A DNA stretch of 45,014 nucleotides, from contig NZ_JAMZGM010000028.1 of NCBI RefSeq assembly GCF_024158605.1, forward strand, positions 1-45,014, read 5' to 3'. The notes beneath the pieces are model-generated. The model did not search any database, was not told where the DNA came from, and worked only from the letters and a program-made list of their open reading frames with translations. Position 1 is the stretch's first letter; every line of letters begins with the position of its first letter. The DNA comes from Sebaldella sp. S0638 (lineage in GTDB: Bacteria > Fusobacteriota > Fusobacteriia > Fusobacteriales > Leptotrichiaceae). Below, piece by piece: positions 11,589 through 43,660 of the stretch. Both the position numbers and the translations under genes were made by a program.

Positions 11589-11627
11589 GCATCGTATATC
11601 AAAAAAACTGATATATTTTTTTATTTA

Positions 11628-11742
11628 TCTACTTCTTTCATCCAGACTTTACTGTCGGTACTGGAATTACACCAGTTCATGCTTAAATATAAGCTCGTGG
11701 ACTTTACCACCGGTCGGGAATTTAACCCTGCCCTGAAGTTTA
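11628..11742 (-). ncRNA. FMN riboswitch (RFN element)
   Basis: The minus strand carries the RFN aptamer core almost exactly: CTTCAGGGCAGGGT, CCCGACCGGTGGTAAAGTCC, CACGAGC, then CCAGTACCGACAGTAAAG and GTCTGGATGAAAGAAG. The outer P1 stem pairs CTTC with GAAG. FMN binding to such elements stops expression of riboflavin genes. Here the aptamer is followed about 40 bases later by a terminator and then ribH, so control is most likely by transcription termination. Confidence 0.97.
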
Positions 11743-11759
11743 ATTGTTTTTCTAAATTT

Positions 11760-33954: not shown

Positions 33955-34227
33955 TTATCTAAATTCTATATGTAATTCTTTTCCCAAGCCCCGTGCGAGC
34001 TTCTTCAAAAATTTAAGACTGGGATTATACTCACCTTTTTCAAATCTGCTGATATTGCTTTGTTTAGTTCCTGTCCGCTCTGCCAGCTGCTGCTGTGTTA
34101 ACTTTTGGTCATTACGAATTTTAATAACCTGTTTTATAAGCTCATATTCAGGCTCTAATTTCTTATATTCCTCATATAACTCCGGGTCTCCTTTAAATAC
34201 TTTTTCCTTATATTCTTTAAATTTCAT
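33955..34227 (-). CDS. XRE-family antitoxin
   Basis: A 90-residue DNA-binding protein. The helix-turn-helix lies in the C-terminal half (LTQQQLAERTGTKQSNISRFEKGEYNPSLKFL pattern, residues about 48-79). An N-terminal helical segment of about 40 residues probably holds the toxin-binding part. It overlaps the upstream toxin gene by four bases (ATGA), the order seen in HigBA-type modules. As antitoxin it should neutralise the toxin and, with it, repress the promoter, whose spacer holds a palindrome. No helper gene is nearby. Confidence 0.88.
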   Translation of the reverse strand: MKFKEYKEKVFKGDPELYEEYKKLEPEYELIKQVIKIRNDQKLTQQQLAERTGTKQSNISRFEKGEYNPSLKFLKKLARGLGKELHIEFR

Positions 34228-34571
34228 ATCTCAAACCTCCTTTTATAGTCAGCCATCCTTTTTCTTGCAGTATCTTTTTCACATTCCGGCGTCTTATTAG
34301 TTTTCTTTATGAATCCATGCAATAGAATAATTTTATTATATACTGATATAAAATAGAATATCCGTGAAATACTGACAGAAGCTTTTATTCTTAATTCCCA
34401 TAACTTACCTTCAATTTTTTTAGCATGAGGCATTGTTAATTCTATTCCAAATTCCTCAAGCAATTCAATTTCCCTAATTGCTCTGGCCTTACGCTTCACA
34501 GGCAGACTTTCCAAAAAATCCAATATTACATTTCTTCCGCTTTCTGTTTCATAAAACTCAATTTCCCACAT
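34224..34571 (-). CDS. RelE/HigB-type toxin (Gp49-like family)
   Basis: A 115-residue protein of the Gp49-like/HigB branch of RelE toxins, which cut mRNA on the ribosome. Typical features are the short N-terminal strand EIEFYETE, the helical SLPVKRKARAIREIELLEEFG, GKLWELRIK, the basic ISRIFYFI strand, then ILLHGFIKKTNKTP and a basic C-terminal helix. The catalytic-type basic residues (R and K in the last two strands) are present. The gene is first in the operon, with the antitoxin overlapping its end. GGAGGGGG is about six bases upstream of the ATG. Confidence 0.88.
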   Translation of the reverse strand: MWEIEFYETESGRNVILDFLESLPVKRKARAIREIELLEEFGIELTMPHAKKIEGKLWELRIKASVSISRIFYFISVYNKIILLHGFIKKTNKTPECEKDTARKRMADYKRRFEI

Positions 34572-37943: not shown

Positions 37944-40001
37944 TTATATATTTAATGCAAATTTTTCTTTAGTATTTTTCAAAACTTCATGTGTATATTC
38001 TTCTCTCATCTGTGACTGATACATTTTTGCATAAAGTCCGTCTTTTTCCACAAGTTCTTCATGCGTTCCTCTTTCCACTACATTTCCTTTATTCAGAACA
38101 ATAAGCTGATCTGCGTGTTTTACTGTAGAAAGCCTGTGAGCTATTATAAATGTAGTTCTGTTTTGTGATATTACATTAAGGGCTTTTTGTATCATAATTT
38201 CTGTTTCTGTATCTATATTTGCCGTAGCCTCATCCAGTATTAATATTTCCGGATCATAGACCATTACTCTCGCAAAGGCTATAAGCTGTCTTTCTCCTAC
38301 AGAAAAGTTTTTCCCCATATCTTCCACCGATTCGTGTATACCATTCGGCTGTTTATCAATAAAGCTCTGTGCACCTATCTGATTCATTATCTCAAGGACT
38401 CTTTCCTCGCTTACATCATTGCTGTTAAAAGTTATATTAGAAAATAGCGTGCCGCTGAAAAGCACCGGATCCTGAAGAACCATTCCCACATGCGACCTGT
38501 AAGTCTGAACGGGATAATCCTTCAACGACCTTCTGTCTACGATAATATCACCATTCTGATAATCATAAAACCTGAGCAGAACATTCATAAGCGAACTTTT
38601 CCCGCTTCCTGTGTGACCTACTATTCCCACTGTATTTCCCGCCGGGATATTAAGATTAATATTTTTCAACACATAATTCTCATCATCATAAGCAAAACTA
38701 AGGTCTTTGAATTCCACATTTCCTTTCAGTTCCAATTTTTCATCGCTGAATTCCAGTTCTTTTGAAGGAACATTCAAAAACATGTCAAATATTCTTCTTG
38801 CTGAAACAATTGCTCTCTCAAATCTGTTCAGAACTCCGAAAAACCAGAACAACGGTGCAAATGCGCTGTCTACATACTGTACAAAGGCAAATACCGTACC
38901 CACCGACAGAATCATACTTCCGCTTAAAAATTCCCTTCCAAAATACACAAGTGTAAGTGTAATTGCCAGACGACGCACTGTATGAGCCATACCATCTGTG
39001 TAAAGCGCGCTTAACACTGCGAATTTTCTTTTATATTCCAGATAATCATCTGCCAATACGTCAAATTCTGCTATTGATTCATCTTCGTGAGTAAATGCCT
39101 GAACTACTTCTATTCCCTGAAACTGCTCGTTCATCATTGCATTCATATTAGACTGTATTTCTCTCGTTTCCTTGAAATTTGCCGATACATATTTTCTGTA
39201 TAAATACAGCCAGATCATAATAATCGGAAGTATCATCAACGCATAAGATGCAAGTCTTGCATTCAGAAAAAACATTGCTATATATATGAAAACCACCTGT
39301 ACTACTGCCTTTACTATCTCAAGAAGTGTATTTTCATATAATCCGAATATTGCATTACTGTCATGCACAATATACGACACTACCTTTCCGTCAGGGTAAT
39401 CACTGAAATATTGTACCGGAAGTTTCTGCAGCTGCTTAAATGCATCCCTACGCAGATCGAATACTACTTTAGTAGCAAGTATTCTCAGGCTGTAACCGCA
39501 TGTATACATCAAACACGCAGCAGCCATGAAAAGTATAAATATCATTGCTACCATAGACATTGCAGGTGCAACATACGGTTTATAAAAATTCCATACATCA
39601 TCTTTTGTAAGCATATTGAACTCAATGTTGCTTGCCTGATTATTTATATAAAGCTGGTTATCTTTTATTTCCGCTTTTTCATCTGAAACATCCGAATCTA
39701 CGAGTACATACCCATCTTTAGTTAAAATTATGCTGTTTTTTCTTAATACTTCAATATTACTATTTTCCTCAATTCTTGTATAATATTTTCCCTTATAAAA
39801 AACCGATTTTTTTTCATTCTGTATTGTGTTACTCACTGAAACAGGTCTGAACATCCCCATAATATATTTATCTATAATTATTTTTGTCGTCATTGTTCCC
39901 ACTATAAATATCGTTGTGGAAAGCATTAAGGCAAAAAGACTGTAAAATAAAAATCTCTTATATGGTTTTGTATAGGCCCATAACTGTTTCCATATATACA
40001 T
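37944..40001 (-). CDS. ABC exporter half-transporter, catalytically complete subunit
   Basis: A 685-residue half-transporter with six transmembrane helices and a C-terminal nucleotide-binding domain. A roughly 100-residue soluble insert lies between the first two helices (about 50-145), as in YheH/BmrD-type subunits. The ATPase has a normal Walker A (GHTGSGKSS), a canonical Walker B with catalytic Glu (LILDEATANID), an altered signature (SVGERQ in place of LSGGQ) and the switch His (IIAHRLST). The altered signature faces the degenerate site of the partner, which fits a heterodimeric multidrug exporter. Its ATG shares one base with the partner stop (TAATG), and GGAGGCGG overlaps the end of that gene. 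Confidence 0.93.
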   Translation of the reverse strand: MYIWKQLWAYTKPYKRFLFYSLFALMLSTTIFIVGTMTTKIIIDKYIMGMFRPVSVSNTIQNEKKSVFYKGKYYTRIEENSNIEVLRKNSIILTKDGYVLVDSDVSDEKAEIKDNQLYINNQASNIEFNMLTKDDVWNFYKPYVAPAMSMVAMIFILFMAAACLMYTCGYSLRILATKVVFDLRRDAFKQLQKLPVQYFSDYPDGKVVSYIVHDSNAIFGLYENTLLEIVKAVVQVVFIYIAMFFLNARLASYALMILPIIMIWLYLYRKYVSANFKETREIQSNMNAMMNEQFQGIEVVQAFTHEDESIAEFDVLADDYLEYKRKFAVLSALYTDGMAHTVRRLAITLTLVYFGREFLSGSMILSVGTVFAFVQYVDSAFAPLFWFFGVLNRFERAIVSARRIFDMFLNVPSKELEFSDEKLELKGNVEFKDLSFAYDDENYVLKNINLNIPAGNTVGIVGHTGSGKSSLMNVLLRFYDYQNGDIIVDRRSLKDYPVQTYRSHVGMVLQDPVLFSGTLFSNITFNSNDVSEERVLEIMNQIGAQSFIDKQPNGIHESVEDMGKNFSVGERQLIAFARVMVYDPEILILDEATANIDTETEIMIQKALNVISQNRTTFIIAHRLSTVKHADQLIVLNKGNVVERGTHEELVEKDGLYAKMYQSQMREEYTHEVLKNTKEKFALNI

Positions 40002-41755
40002 TATTCCGCCTCCTCTGATTCCTGAGTTGTCATTGTATTTTGTTCCATAAACTGATCATAATACCAGCCTTTGAGCTCCATAAGCTCATCATGATTACCC
40101 TTTTCCACTATTGTACCTTCCTGAAGAACAATTATGCAGTTTGCATTTCTTACAGCGGATAATCTGTGCGCTACTATGATTTTTATCATTGCCGGATAAT
40201 ATTCTGTTATATTCCTGATTATATTTTCCTCTGTTTTCCCGTCAACTGCTGACAATGAATCATCCAGAACCAAAACATTTCCTGCTCTTACAAAAGCTCT
40301 TGCAAGCGACAGTCTTTGTTTCTGTCCTCCGGAAAGCATAACCCCTGATTCTCCGGTTACAGTTTCCAGTCCGTTTGTAAGTGTTCCGATGTCTTTGGTA
40401 AAATCTGCATGATCTATTGCTGTCATTATATCTTCACGGGAAGCATTCAGATTTCCCAGTCTGATATTTTCATATACTGTTTTTGAAAAGACAATATGCT
40501 CTTGAGGAACATATGCTATATGCTCTCTTATATCTTCTGCATTATACTCTGTTATGTCCCTGTTATTTATTTTAATTCCGCCTTCTCCTAATTTATACTG
40601 TCTCAAAAGCTGACGGATAATAGTTGTTTTTCCGCTTCCTGTTGTCCCTACTATTCCCAGTGTTTCGCCGGTTTTCACGCCGATACTGAATGAATCAAGG
40701 CTTTTTACAGAAGAACCGGGATAAGAAAAACTGTAATTATCAAATTCTATACTTTCTATTTTTCCAAGTCCCAAAGGCTTTTCCGGAATAATAATATCAC
40801 TTTCTTCATTGTATACTGCATCAATTCTTTCATAAGAACCGCTTCCTCTCTGCAGTGTGTTAATAAAGGCACCTAAGGCGAAAACAGGCCATTCCAGCAT
40901 CATTACATACACAAAGTATGTAACCAGTTTACCTGTTGTCATGTTACTTTTGAATACATCCATTATCCCGAAAAAAAGCGCCAGTGCCATTGCAACTGTA
41001 AATACTCCTATAAATAAAGGTTCATACAGTGAAATAACTTTTGAAAAAGCAATACTTTTATCATAAGTAGTCTGTGATTTTGAAAGAAGCTTTTCTATAT
41101 CGTCTCTCTCTTTTGCATAAGCTCTTATTACCCGCACACCTACTATAGACTCAAGTACACTGTTGCTCAGCATACTTGTGGACTGCTGTCTTTCTTCATA
41201 AAGTCTCTCTATTGTTTTTTCCAGTTTATCTACCCCGAATGGAATTATTAAAATGGGAATCAAGACTATAATCGAAACTTTCGGATTAATGAAAAACATG
41301 CTTGAAATAAGCAGTGTCAGGTATAGCGAGGCCTCAGCCAGCATCAGAAAACCGAAATCCACTGCTTCACTCACAGCATTAACGTCTTCTGTAGCTCTGG
41401 ACATAAGATCACCTGTCTGATACTTCTTAAAAAATTTTCCGTCCATTCTTATAATATGTCTAAAAAACTTTTTCAGTACTTTAAAAGAAAGAATATTGGC
41501 ATTTTGAATAAAAATATAGTTCCATATTCCTGTAGTAATATATCCTATTACTATTATGGAAACCAATACTATTGTTATTTGTGTCATTTTTGTTCCTGTC
41601 AGTGTTCTCATCGTCATCTGATCTATTGTATACCCTGTGATCCACGGAACAATCAATGAAAATACATCTCCTATGAGCAGCATTAACAGCACCAGAAGAT
41701 ATCTCCATTTCATCTCCTTTATGAACCAGCCAAGCTGCTTAAAAATCTTTATCAT
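40001..41755 (-). CDS. ABC exporter half-transporter, degenerate ATP-site subunit
   Basis: A 584-residue half-transporter of the YheI/BmrC/TM287 kind. Six transmembrane helices (about 1-320) precede the ATPase with Walker A GTTGSGKTT, a proper signature LSGGQKQR and a Walker B ending in Asp-Asp (VLVLDDSLSAVDG), so the catalytic Glu is replaced by Asp. The site formed by this Walker B and the altered signature of the partner would be the non-hydrolytic one of a heterodimer. The likely role is multidrug or lipid export from the inner membrane. AAGGAGG precedes the ATG. Upstream lie a short leader ORF and two terminator hairpins, which suggests induction by translation-blocking compounds. Confidence 0.93.
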   Translation of the reverse strand: MIKIFKQLGWFIKEMKWRYLLVLLMLLIGDVFSLIVPWITGYTIDQMTMRTLTGTKMTQITIVLVSIIVIGYITTGIWNYIFIQNANILSFKVLKKFFRHIIRMDGKFFKKYQTGDLMSRATEDVNAVSEAVDFGFLMLAEASLYLTLLISSMFFINPKVSIIVLIPILIIPFGVDKLEKTIERLYEERQQSTSMLSNSVLESIVGVRVIRAYAKERDDIEKLLSKSQTTYDKSIAFSKVISLYEPLFIGVFTVAMALALFFGIMDVFKSNMTTGKLVTYFVYVMMLEWPVFALGAFINTLQRGSGSYERIDAVYNEESDIIIPEKPLGLGKIESIEFDNYSFSYPGSSVKSLDSFSIGVKTGETLGIVGTTGSGKTTIIRQLLRQYKLGEGGIKINNRDITEYNAEDIREHIAYVPQEHIVFSKTVYENIRLGNLNASREDIMTAIDHADFTKDIGTLTNGLETVTGESGVMLSGGQKQRLSLARAFVRAGNVLVLDDSLSAVDGKTEENIIRNITEYYPAMIKIIVAHRLSAVRNANCIIVLQEGTIVEKGNHDELMELKGWYYDQFMEQNTMTTQESEEAE

Positions 41756-41847
41756 TTCTTTCCTCCTTAAAACAAAATTTTTATTTTCTGCCTTTTATTC
41801 TTATCTTTTAGCACTCACTCCCATCTCTTAATCAAAATTTTTATAAT

Positions 41848-41874
41848 AAAAAAAGTAAGGTCTATCACCCTACT
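41848..41874 (-). terminator. Second leader terminator before the ABC genes
   Basis: On the minus strand AGTAGGG pairs with CCTTACT (one G-T pair) around seven bases and runs into seven T. It lies about 95 bases upstream of the first ABC gene, so read-through is needed for expression. Confidence 0.8.
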
Positions 41875-41894
41875 AAAATTTTATTGCCTGTTTT

Positions 41895-41939
41895 AAAAAA
41901 TAAAATTCGAGCTGAGCCTCTAAAATAGAGGCTGCACTC
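41895..41939 (-). terminator. First leader hairpin (attenuator-like)
   Basis: On the minus strand AGCCTCTA pairs with TAGAGGCT around three bases (41915-41933), and the stem extends as GAG/CTC to 41909-41939 with two mismatches. It is followed by GAATTTTATTTTTT. Its 5' arm can alternatively pair with upstream bases: AAATAGAGG of the transcript (top-strand 41939-41947), starting at the leader-ORF stop codon, pairs with CCTCTATTT (41923-41931). The two structures exclude each other. Confidence 0.7.
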
Positions 41940-41945
41940 CTCTAT

Positions 41946-42035
41946 TTATATATAAGAACAAAGGCTCAACACTAATATGCCGGCTGTTGTTCTGTTTGTA
42001 TTAAATTCTTTAATCGCACTTAACTTAATATCCAT
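41946..42035 (-). CDS. 29-residue leader ORF upstream of ABC exporter
   Basis: A short reading frame of 29 codons starting ATG GAT ATT (MDIKLSAIKEFNTNRTTAG) and ending LSLCSYI before a TAA. It has a strong ribosome binding site (AGGAAGGTG, six bases upstream), lies just after a near-consensus promoter, and its stop codon is where the attenuator-like hairpins begin. No homologue is recognised. The layout is that of a leader peptide whose translation controls downstream transcription, as known for the bmrB leader of the B. subtilis bmrCD exporter. Whether the peptide senses an antibiotic or an amino acid is not visible. Confidence 0.65.
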   Translation of the reverse strand: MDIKLSAIKEFNTNRTTAGILVLSLCSYI

Positions 42036-42078
42036 GTTGTCACCTTCCTCTCTAAAATTTCAAAATTTATCTTCCAAA

Positions 42079-42108
42079 ATCTTAACATACACTTATCGAC
42101 TATGTCAA
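42079..42108 (-). promoter_or_regulatory. Promoter of the leader and ABC exporter operon
   Basis: Minus-strand TTGACA (42103-42108), 18-base spacer, TAAGAT (42079-42084), about 40 bases upstream of the leader ORF start. Confidence 0.7.
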
Positions 42109-42169: not shown

Positions 42170-43660
42170 TTATCTTCCGTAAAGTTTGCTTATTCTTTTT
42201 ATTTCATCTGATAAAACTGTTGTCAAATCCTCTTCTTTCATTCTCCATTTCCAGTTTCCCGCTGCAACTCCTGGGGTATTCATTCTTGCCTCGCTGTCCA
42301 GACCTAAAAAATCCTGCATAGGTGCCAGTGCCATGTTAGCAACTGATCTCCACGCGGCTTTTATAAACCGCCAATTTATCTCATTATCAGTATAAATATC
42401 CAGATAATCCCTCACATATTCTTTATCATGCTCGCTTGCTTTGGAATACCAGCCTGTAATTGTATCATTATCGTGTGTTCCGGTATACACCACACAGTTA
42501 TGATTATAAGAATGCGTGAGATAATCATTCTCCTCATCTGAATCAAATGCAAACTGTAATATTTTCATACCTGGAAATCCTGTTTCATTTCTCAGTTCCA
42601 CTACTTCATTAGTAAGGTTCCCCAGATCTTCGGCAATTATAGGGAGATCACCAAGTGCTGCCTTTATGGAATTAAAAAAATCTATTCCCGGTCCTTTTCT
42701 CCATTCACCTATGACCGCTGTTTTCTCTTCTGCGGGAACTGCCCAGTATGATTCAAATCCTCTAAAATGATCTATTCTTATAATATCTGCTGTTTTCAGA
42801 TTAGCTCTTACTCTCTCTATCCACCATTTATAGCCGCTTCCTTTTAATTTTTCCCAGTCAAACAAAGGATTCCCCCAAAGCTGCCCTGTTTCACTGAAAT
42901 AATCAGGCGGAACACCAGCCACATCTATAGGTTTTCTCTCTTTATCAAATAAAAATATTTCTGGATTTGCCCATGCATCCGCACTGTCAAAAGCAACAAA
43001 AATCGGAATATCCCCTATTATGCTGATACCTTTTGAATTAGCGTACCCTTTTATCTTTGCCCATTGATTAAAAAAAAGATACTGCACAAAGTAATTGTAC
43101 TCTATATCATCTTTCAAAAGTTTTCTGTATTTTTTCAAGGCGCTTTCTTTTCTCAGTAGTATGTCTTCATCCCATTTTGACCATTCATACCCCTTAAAAT
43201 AATATTTTAGGGAAATAAATAATGAATAGTCTTCCAGCCAAAAAGAATTCTCATCCTTAAAAATCTGTATTTCAAATTTCATCTGTTCATTATCTGATTT
43301 TTTGTAGTTTTCATATGCTTTACGCAACAAAGGAAGCTTATTTTTATATAAAAGACCATAATCTACATTTTCAGGATCGTCTCCCAATTCTGCTTCATCT
43401 GCATCCTCTGTCTGCAGCAGACCTGAATCTATCAGAGTCTCAAGATCTATCAAATATGGATTCCCCGCAAAAGCTGAAAAAGACTGATATGGTGAATCTC
43501 CATATCCTGTAGGCCCTAAAGGAAAAACCTGCCAGAGTTTCTGATTTGATCTGCTCAAAAAATTTATAAATTCTATCGCACTGTTCCCTAATGTTCCAAT
43601 ACCATATTTTCCGTATAATGATGACGGATGCAGTAAAATCCCCGAACTTCTTGGAAACAT
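42170..43660 (-). CDS. malQ: 4-alpha-glucanotransferase (amylomaltase)
   Basis: A GH77 enzyme that moves alpha-1,4-glucan chains between maltodextrins and releases glucose. The 496 residues cover the whole family fold: RSSGILLHPSSL at the N-terminus, the catalytic nucleophile in IIRIDHFRGFESYW, acid/base Glu in PIIAEDLG, and YTGTHDNDT for the third Asp. AGGAGG precedes the ATG. It has its own promoter and ends 62 bases before the exporter promoter. With the intracellular alpha-amylase it forms a maltodextrin-degrading set, though the two genes are 8 kb apart. Confidence 0.96.
   Translation of the reverse strand: MFPRSSGILLHPSSLYGKYGIGTLGNSAIEFINFLSRSNQKLWQVFPLGPTGYGDSPYQSFSAFAGNPYLIDLETLIDSGLLQTEDADEAELGDDPENVDYGLLYKNKLPLLRKAYENYKKSDNEQMKFEIQIFKDENSFWLEDYSLFISLKYYFKGYEWSKWDEDILLRKESALKKYRKLLKDDIEYNYFVQYLFFNQWAKIKGYANSKGISIIGDIPIFVAFDSADAWANPEIFLFDKERKPIDVAGVPPDYFSETGQLWGNPLFDWEKLKGSGYKWWIERVRANLKTADIIRIDHFRGFESYWAVPAEEKTAVIGEWRKGPGIDFFNSIKAALGDLPIIAEDLGNLTNEVVELRNETGFPGMKILQFAFDSDEENDYLTHSYNHNCVVYTGTHDNDTITGWYSKASEHDKEYVRDYLDIYTDNEINWRFIKAAWRSVANMALAPMQDFLGLDSEARMNTPGVAAGNWKWRMKEEDLTTVLSDEIKRISKLYGR

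Follow-up and report, generated by a model that had tools for sequence, protein, structure and literature searches.

A leader ORF and competing hairpins ahead of BmrCD-type exporter genes in Sebaldella: a probable bmrB-type attenuator

Why should a small open reading frame (ORF) and a series of overlapping hairpins stand between a promoter and the genes of a heterodimeric ABC exporter in a fusobacterium? The question is raised by a stretch of 45,014 nucleotides from Sebaldella sp. S0638 (hereafter the window; source genome of 4.27 Mb in 292 contigs). On its minus strand, a leader-attenuator region lies between a gene that matches the 4-alpha-glucanotransferase family (42170-43660) and two ABC exporter genes. 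Read 5' to 3', it consists of a promoter, a Shine-Dalgarno (SD) sequence, a leader ORF, hairpin B, the overlapping hairpin T1 and terminator T2, followed by the exporter genes (Table 1). The original prediction, made from the letters alone, had likened this arrangement to bmrB-bmrCD of Bacillus subtilis, where, according to passages of the published study, leader translation is required and ribosome-targeting drugs induce (PMC4191407). We hold it probable, with moderate confidence, that the locus is a translation-sensing transcription attenuator of the bmrB type that controls a BmrCD-type drug exporter. What the sequences themselves show is a set of parts that stand in the same order and are kept in four genomes, and a BmrC that falls among bmrC-like genes most of which carry a leader.

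Table 1. Features of the leader-attenuator region and the exporter genes in the window.
Feature	Position	Strand	Details	Basis
Promoter	42079-42108	minus	TTGACA (42108-42103), 18-nt spacer, TAAGAT (42084-42079), TG before the -10 box	Promoter scan and conservation in the genus
Shine-Dalgarno sequence of the leader	42040-42048	minus	GGAAGGTGA	6-base match AGGTGA
Leader ORF	41946-42035	minus	29 codons, MDIKLSAIKEFNTNRTTAGILVLSLCSYI	Frame open in 4/4 genus genomes
Hairpin B, candidate antiterminator	41924-41946	minus	AATAGAGG (41946-41939) with CCTCTATT (41931-41924)	Folding and pairing in four sequences
Hairpin T1	41909-41939	minus	Core AGCCTCTA/TAGAGGCT, outer GAGT/GCTC; offset T-run 41905-41895	Folding
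Terminator T2	41847-41874	minus	AGTAGGGT/ACCTTACT, then T7; stem 41874-41854	Terminator scan
BmrC-like ABC exporter half	40001-41755	minus	584 aa, start at 41755	Structure-database match and tree
BmrD-like ABC exporter half	37944-40001	minus	685 aa	Structure-database match

The downstream genes are the heterodimeric ABC exporter that had been predicted. The top PDB match of the first half is B. subtilis YheI (BmrC; 441.9 bits) and that of the second half is YheH (BmrD; 509.4 bits); the two halves are thus nearest BmrC and BmrD, adjacent and in the same order, as expected of members of the BmrCD group. Heterodimeric exporters have one degenerate ATP site, and the translations read LDDSLSAVD in the first half versus LDEATANID in the second, and FSVGERQ in the second half versus LSGGQKQ in the first. 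Between T2 and bmrC, no promoter-like site reaches the scan threshold. In a midpoint-rooted tree of 52 BmrC-like proteins, from which B. subtilis BmrC was left out, the four rows of the genus sit in a 34-row clade with 100/100 support, together with three further fusobacterial exporters and all 27 bmrC-like rows entered from the phylum sample and comparison order described below; all 14 paralogue rows fall outside this clade, and the tree gives long-branch warnings that name fusobacterial and BmrC-clade rows.

How far does this system reach within Fusobacteriota? The first exporter half is matched at E<=1e-85 in 7 of the 98 genomes of the phylum; four of these are the genus genomes compared here, and the remaining three come from a single other genus (33-34% identity). 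A profile built from the four leaders finds only its own members among the 98 genomes (E of 5.1e-18 or better; next E of 0.0575). The three other fusobacterial exporters in the BmrC clade have no such leader, a point against the bmrB-type reading, and by eye an ORF lies right upstream of them.

Within the genus, the region is well preserved. We compared four genomes (the window, G026, G025 and G024), whose upstream regions align across promoter, leader, B, T1 and T2, and the alignment of regions upstream of homologous exporters that the original prediction had proposed finds leader and hairpins kept throughout: all four genomes retain the whole set, from promoter, SD sequence and open frame to hairpin B, the stem of T1 and terminator T2. 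Promoter-like matches in the stretch show no excess (2 versus a shuffle mean of 3.7), and the support for the predicted promoter is therefore the recurrence of both boxes in all four loci. The leader ORF and its ribosome binding site were also foreseen correctly. The frame is open in each genome (29, 29, 29 and 31 codons), the SD match spans 6, 6, 6 and, in G024, 5 bases, and the other two frames over the leader close after 2-22 codons. The whole leader fold has a z score of -2.2 and is reached in stability by 2 of 100 shuffles.

The peptide itself varies much more than its frame. Identity to the window's leader is 69, 69 and 38%, with M1, D2, I3, K4, L5, N14, R15, A18, V22 and S24 invariant in the four genomes. 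In G024, a 3-nt insertion and a 1-nt alignment gap near the end mean that the last codons differ and that the stop codon (TAG) falls inside the 5' arm of B. Changed codons are mostly nonsynonymous, and the substitutions are spread over the codon positions (5, 6 and 4 between the window and G026; 12, 12 and 15 between the window and G024). Third positions are not enriched for them, and four sequences therefore reveal no selection acting on the peptide. In place of a codon-position signature, it is the frame and the SD sequence, together with analogy, from which we infer that the leader is translated.

The alternative stem that had been proposed to start from the leader stop codon was recovered as well: the 5' arm of B begins at the final base of this codon, and its 3' arm doubles as the 5' arm of T1. 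Compared with the window, the B 5' arm is identical at 7/8, 7/8 and 8/8 positions and the B loop at 5/7, 4/7 and 1/7. B pairs in 32/32 cells of the four sequences, with two pairs varying on one side, a count not above chance (shuffles reach it 500/500 times, and slid versions pair in 34-75%). Of the 32 cells of the T1 core, 30 pair, and two of its pairs differ on both sides; 94 of 500 shuffles reach this count, which is not significant with four sequences. Free energies for the window, G026, G025 and G024 are -17.4, -13.8, -10.5 and -11.3 kcal/mol for T1 and -8.1, -9.2, -9.2 and -7.6 kcal/mol for B; against shuffles, hairpin stability gives p of 0.002-0.049 for the T1 region and 0.006-0.013 for the T2 region.

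Are both downstream hairpins terminators? The original prediction of two hairpins with T runs stands for T2, with its T7, and for the strong stem of T1, but the T-run of T1 is offset from the stem by three or four bases (GAA in the window, AAAG in G026 and G025), and it is absent in G024. The terminator scan calls T2 in 4/4 genus loci, T1 in 0/4 and B in 4/4, the last because TTTT follows B. T2 is the one terminator-like site in the leader stretch of the window (shuffle mean 0.1). T2 is thus the conserved terminator of the region, and T1 would be a weak one at most.

These differences, with T2 and its T-run kept in all four genomes, speak for a rival reading in which T2 is the only real terminator. 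The ribosome-controlled B/T1 switch would then act on T2 or on the polymerase instead of terminating at T1, be it by pausing, by Rho or by the shared arm pairing with the 5' arm of T2. The shared-arm sequence CTCTATT can indeed pair with AGTAGGG of T2 at -5.2 to -6.0 kcal/mol, but the p values of this pairing are 0.07-0.22, and it has probability 0.0 in every ensemble of the ribosome-position folding described below. Nor does B touch T2, and T2 has no significant competing partner in the genus sequences. The bmrC upstream regions of a comparison order (see below) also speak against this reading, since their T2 shows no excess of partners in 71 loci or, in a second analysis, in 47 loci. We regard it as unlikely, though not to be neglected. 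Other ways of controlling T2 were tried and rejected. Long-range pairing with the leader SD sequence is favored in G026 and G025, but in neither the window nor G024. Pairing of the T1 arms or the upstream stretch with T2 does not hold as a general rule in the comparison set: the four combinations tried reach p<=0.05 in 5, 0, 1 and 4 of 71 loci, and the T1-T2 spacer does so in 4% of 47 loci.

Does the leader RNA behave as a ribosome-gated switch when folded? At equilibrium without a ribosome, T1 has a probability of 0.92-0.95 in three species, and G025 gives 0.55 for T1 versus 0.41 for B. The claim that B holds T1 off is not borne out in the window under these conditions, where the probability of B is 0.03, or 0.00 for a shorter transcript. 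With a ribosome masked, equilibrium folding still prefers T1 in three of the four species at nearly every position. In the window, B rises only around codons 16-18 (0.29 at codon 16; 0.77 at codon 18 for the shorter transcript); in the other genomes it reaches 0.78-0.93 at codons 16-18 (G025), 0.01 (G026) and 0.13 (G024). When the last sense codon occupies the P site, the probability of B is 0.00 in all four sequences. Folding the leader with and without a ribosome footprint had been proposed as a check on the idea that a stalled ribosome favors B, and the stall effect turned out no better than in shuffled leaders, the best stall position being reached by 13, 90, 18 and 87 of 100 shuffled leader bodies (window, G026, G025 and G024).

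Pairing tests gave a similar picture. The upstream stretch pairs with the T1 5' arm better than dinucleotide shuffles at p of 0.03, 0.013, 0.02 and 0.065 (same order), or 0.034, 0.08, 0.03 and 0.09 when scored as a fold. The control pairing with the T1 3' arm does about as well (0.02, 0.026, 0.025 and 0.177), and the upstream-stretch pairing is therefore not specific for B. The leader ORF does not pair with the T1 5' arm beyond chance in the four genus sequences (p of 0.66-0.999). Overall, the stall-folding and pairing tests do not support B as antiterminator. A composite antiterminator, in which leader codons near 23-25 and the T1 3' arm pair around B, brings the probability of B to 0.77 (window) and 0.93 (G025) at codon 18, but leaves it at 0.01 in G026 and at 0.13 in G024 (codon 22); it does not exceed shuffles and is no more than a possibility.

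Because T1 beats B at equilibrium in three of the four species and stalled-ribosome folds match shuffles, antitermination by B would have to be kinetic. In the growing B/T1 region, B has a probability of 0.98-0.99 up to 30 nt, and T1 takes over with 0.74-0.99 at 33 nt. Going from B to T1 along the direct path means crossing a barrier of 10.5-11.4 kcal/mol (an upper bound), and B might therefore outlast the passage of the polymerase.

The mechanism we propose for a bmrB-type attenuator would then run as follows. RNA polymerase would start at the promoter and transcribe the leader ORF. Under free translation, the ribosome at the stop codon would cover the 5' arm of B, which would let T1 form, and transcription would mostly end at T1 and T2. 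If leader translation slows, for which ribosome-targeting drugs are the most likely cause, the 5' arm of B would stay free; B would form first and be kinetically trapped, T1 would fail, and more polymerases would reach the exporter genes. T2 would act as a fixed, leaky downstream terminator that holds basal expression low. The B/T1 switch does not explain T2 or its regulation.

Related leaders were also sought ahead of other bmrC-like genes. In a sample of 398 genomes from the phylum of G098, 24 have such a gene at E<=1e-105. One of these is G368, and in its order 273 of 397 genomes have a bmrC-like gene at E<=1e-120. The comparison order probably belongs to Bacillota, judging by B. subtilis protein matches and plasmid-collection matches in Listeria, Cytobacillus and Acetoanaerobium. 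From it we drew 110 upstream regions (30 loci plus 80 hand-picked from the best scores down); 109 remained once a clipped region had been removed. Because the 80 loci were picked by hand from a score-ordered list, this is not a random sample.

A leader followed by a terminator is the rule in these regions. With a loose leader rule (SD match of at least 5 bases), a small ORF ends near a terminator in 99/109. With a strict rule (at least 6 bases), 86/109 have a leader plus terminator and 64/109 a leader plus two terminators, compared with 5/545 and 0/545 of the dinucleotide shuffles. Lower-scoring paralogue exporters of the phylum sample reach 3/14 and 0/14 (14 of 15 were used, the clipped L062 being left out), and other fusobacterial exporters 0/8 and 0/8; 6 of the 12 higher-scoring exporters of the phylum sample have a leader plus terminator, 4 of them with two. 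In the genus, the window passes the strict rule with one terminator (T2) and G026 and G025 with two (B and T2), and G024 fails it (SD match of 5) and meets the loose one.

We could assign leader and T1 in 94 of the 109 loci and took the stretch from 45 nt before the leader end to T1. This stretch pairs with the T1 5' arm at p<=0.05 in 51/94 loci as a duplex and 62/94 as a fold, and the control pairing with the T1 3' arm is significant in 1/94. A competing antiterminator therefore looks general in the comparison order. For the most part, the 5' arm of this antiterminator falls within the ORF (at a median of -31 to -13.5 relative to the stop codon), and 19/60 overlap the stop region.

Several further observations were made on these loci. 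At least two terminator-like hairpins occur in 82/109 regions, the second one without a detectable competing partner. A second SD-led small ORF, less than about 160 nt upstream of bmrC and ending in ESG, EGG, DSG, DGG, DDG or similar, is found in 76/109 regions versus 0/545 shuffles and 0/14 paralogues, by a pattern chosen post hoc; it was not seen in the four fusobacteria. At a locus outside this set (L056), a bmrC-like gene stands behind an apparent tRNA gene (by eye), a 23-codon leader and two terminators, and the start of its protein may resemble streptococcal PatA.

The leaders of the comparison set (L072-L133 and L135-L181) often carry [QN][LF][NHI], frequently followed by [VA]T.P. Of 81 nonredundant leaders, 18 have QL[NH] versus 1.4 after shuffling, 14 have NFI versus 1.0, and 13 have [VA]T.P versus 0.4, all patterns chosen post hoc. 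Since the antiterminator arm occupies the same part of the ORF, this recurrent pattern could be a motif for stalling. The four fusobacterial leaders were also scored for a shared arrest motif, with a gapless model trained on the 81 nonredundant leaders (of 99), and the motif was rejected there as unproven: p was 0.108, 0.17, 0.156 and 0.747 at width 9 and 0.503, 0.084, 0.156 and 0.048 at width 11, the best of eight tests being 0.048.

With the comparison set in hand, another alternative can be weighed, in which plain terminators stand beside an incidental small ORF, read-through is fixed and nothing is sensed. A peptide without codon-position signature and equilibrium folds without a stall-dependent switch beyond chance are what this alternative would lead one to expect. 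It is nevertheless improbable: such a leader is regulatory in B. subtilis, according to passages of the study of that system (PMC4191407), leader plus terminator is the rule before bmrC, and the frame, the SD sequence and the B 5' arm are kept in all four genomes while the B loop and the spacer diverge. Control of the terminators by a ligand-binding riboswitch or by a protein-binding RNA, with the ORF left untranslated, is also very improbable: the reading frame is kept in the four genomes, and no Rfam family reaches its gathering score in the leader region (a permissive scan gave six matches, all far below). Overlapping alternative stems, which are also a riboswitch feature, would fit such an element.

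How close is the favored bmrB-type attenuator to the known systems? The likeness to bmrB-bmrCD holds for the BmrC and BmrD relatives and for the leader and terminator usual before bmrC, but not for an equilibrium switch, and it leaves T2 unexplained. Like bmrB-bmrCD as described in passages of its study, the locus has a small leader ORF ahead of BmrC and BmrD homologues, a terminator with a candidate competing antiterminator, and a proposed logic in which free translation leads to termination (PMC4191407). Unlike bmrB, compared here by its published description, the leader is 29 codons long, with a candidate antiterminator arm that begins at its stop codon and with T1 and T2 behind this arm; BmrB has 54 residues according to a passage of a review (PMC7828314), and the bmrB terminator, antiterminator and a further stem are placed inside the ORF, at nucleotides 60-162, in the passages cited (PMC4191407). 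PatAB of Streptococcus pneumoniae is similar in having a predicted terminator, antiterminator and anti-antiterminator before a heterodimeric ABC exporter, but the term "leader peptide" is absent from the main text of that study, which discusses fluoroquinolones and DNA damage as inducers (PMC4319486). The original prediction knew of no description in a fusobacterium, and none was found in the open-licence literature either, searched for Fusobacterium leader-peptide attenuation and Sebaldella ABC transporters.

The fusobacterial loci resemble those of the comparison order in that an ORF of about the same length follows an SD sequence, in having one or two terminators and in upstream complementarity to the T1 5' arm. 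The comparison order differs in an arm mostly inside the ORF, a shared QL[NH]...[VA]T.P-like motif and the second ORF of 76/109 regions. Tentatively, and with some doubt, we suggest that leader attenuation travels with BmrCD across two phyla while its sensing part is rebuilt, the fusobacterial version being a general sensor of slowed translation. In the comparison order, presumably of Bacillota, the conserved motif beside the in-ORF arm would then reflect drug-dependent stalling at a set place. A fusobacterial peptide free to change, together with an arm starting at the stop codon, would mean that the switch reads whether the ribosome finishes. Should these readings be true, attenuation that senses antibiotics and controls multidrug exporters would also exist in Fusobacteriota, BmrCD with its leader would lend itself to comparison between phyla, and leader frame and timing would be able to persist while the peptide changes; the comparison set supplies a candidate stalling motif and antiterminator position.

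Two other elements on the minus strand of the window deserve mention. An ordinary FMN riboswitch (11626-11744) lies ahead of apparent riboflavin synthesis genes (genes assigned by eye), and a 115-aa ORF (34224-34571) resembles, by eye, a HigB/RelE-type toxin of a toxin-antitoxin pair.
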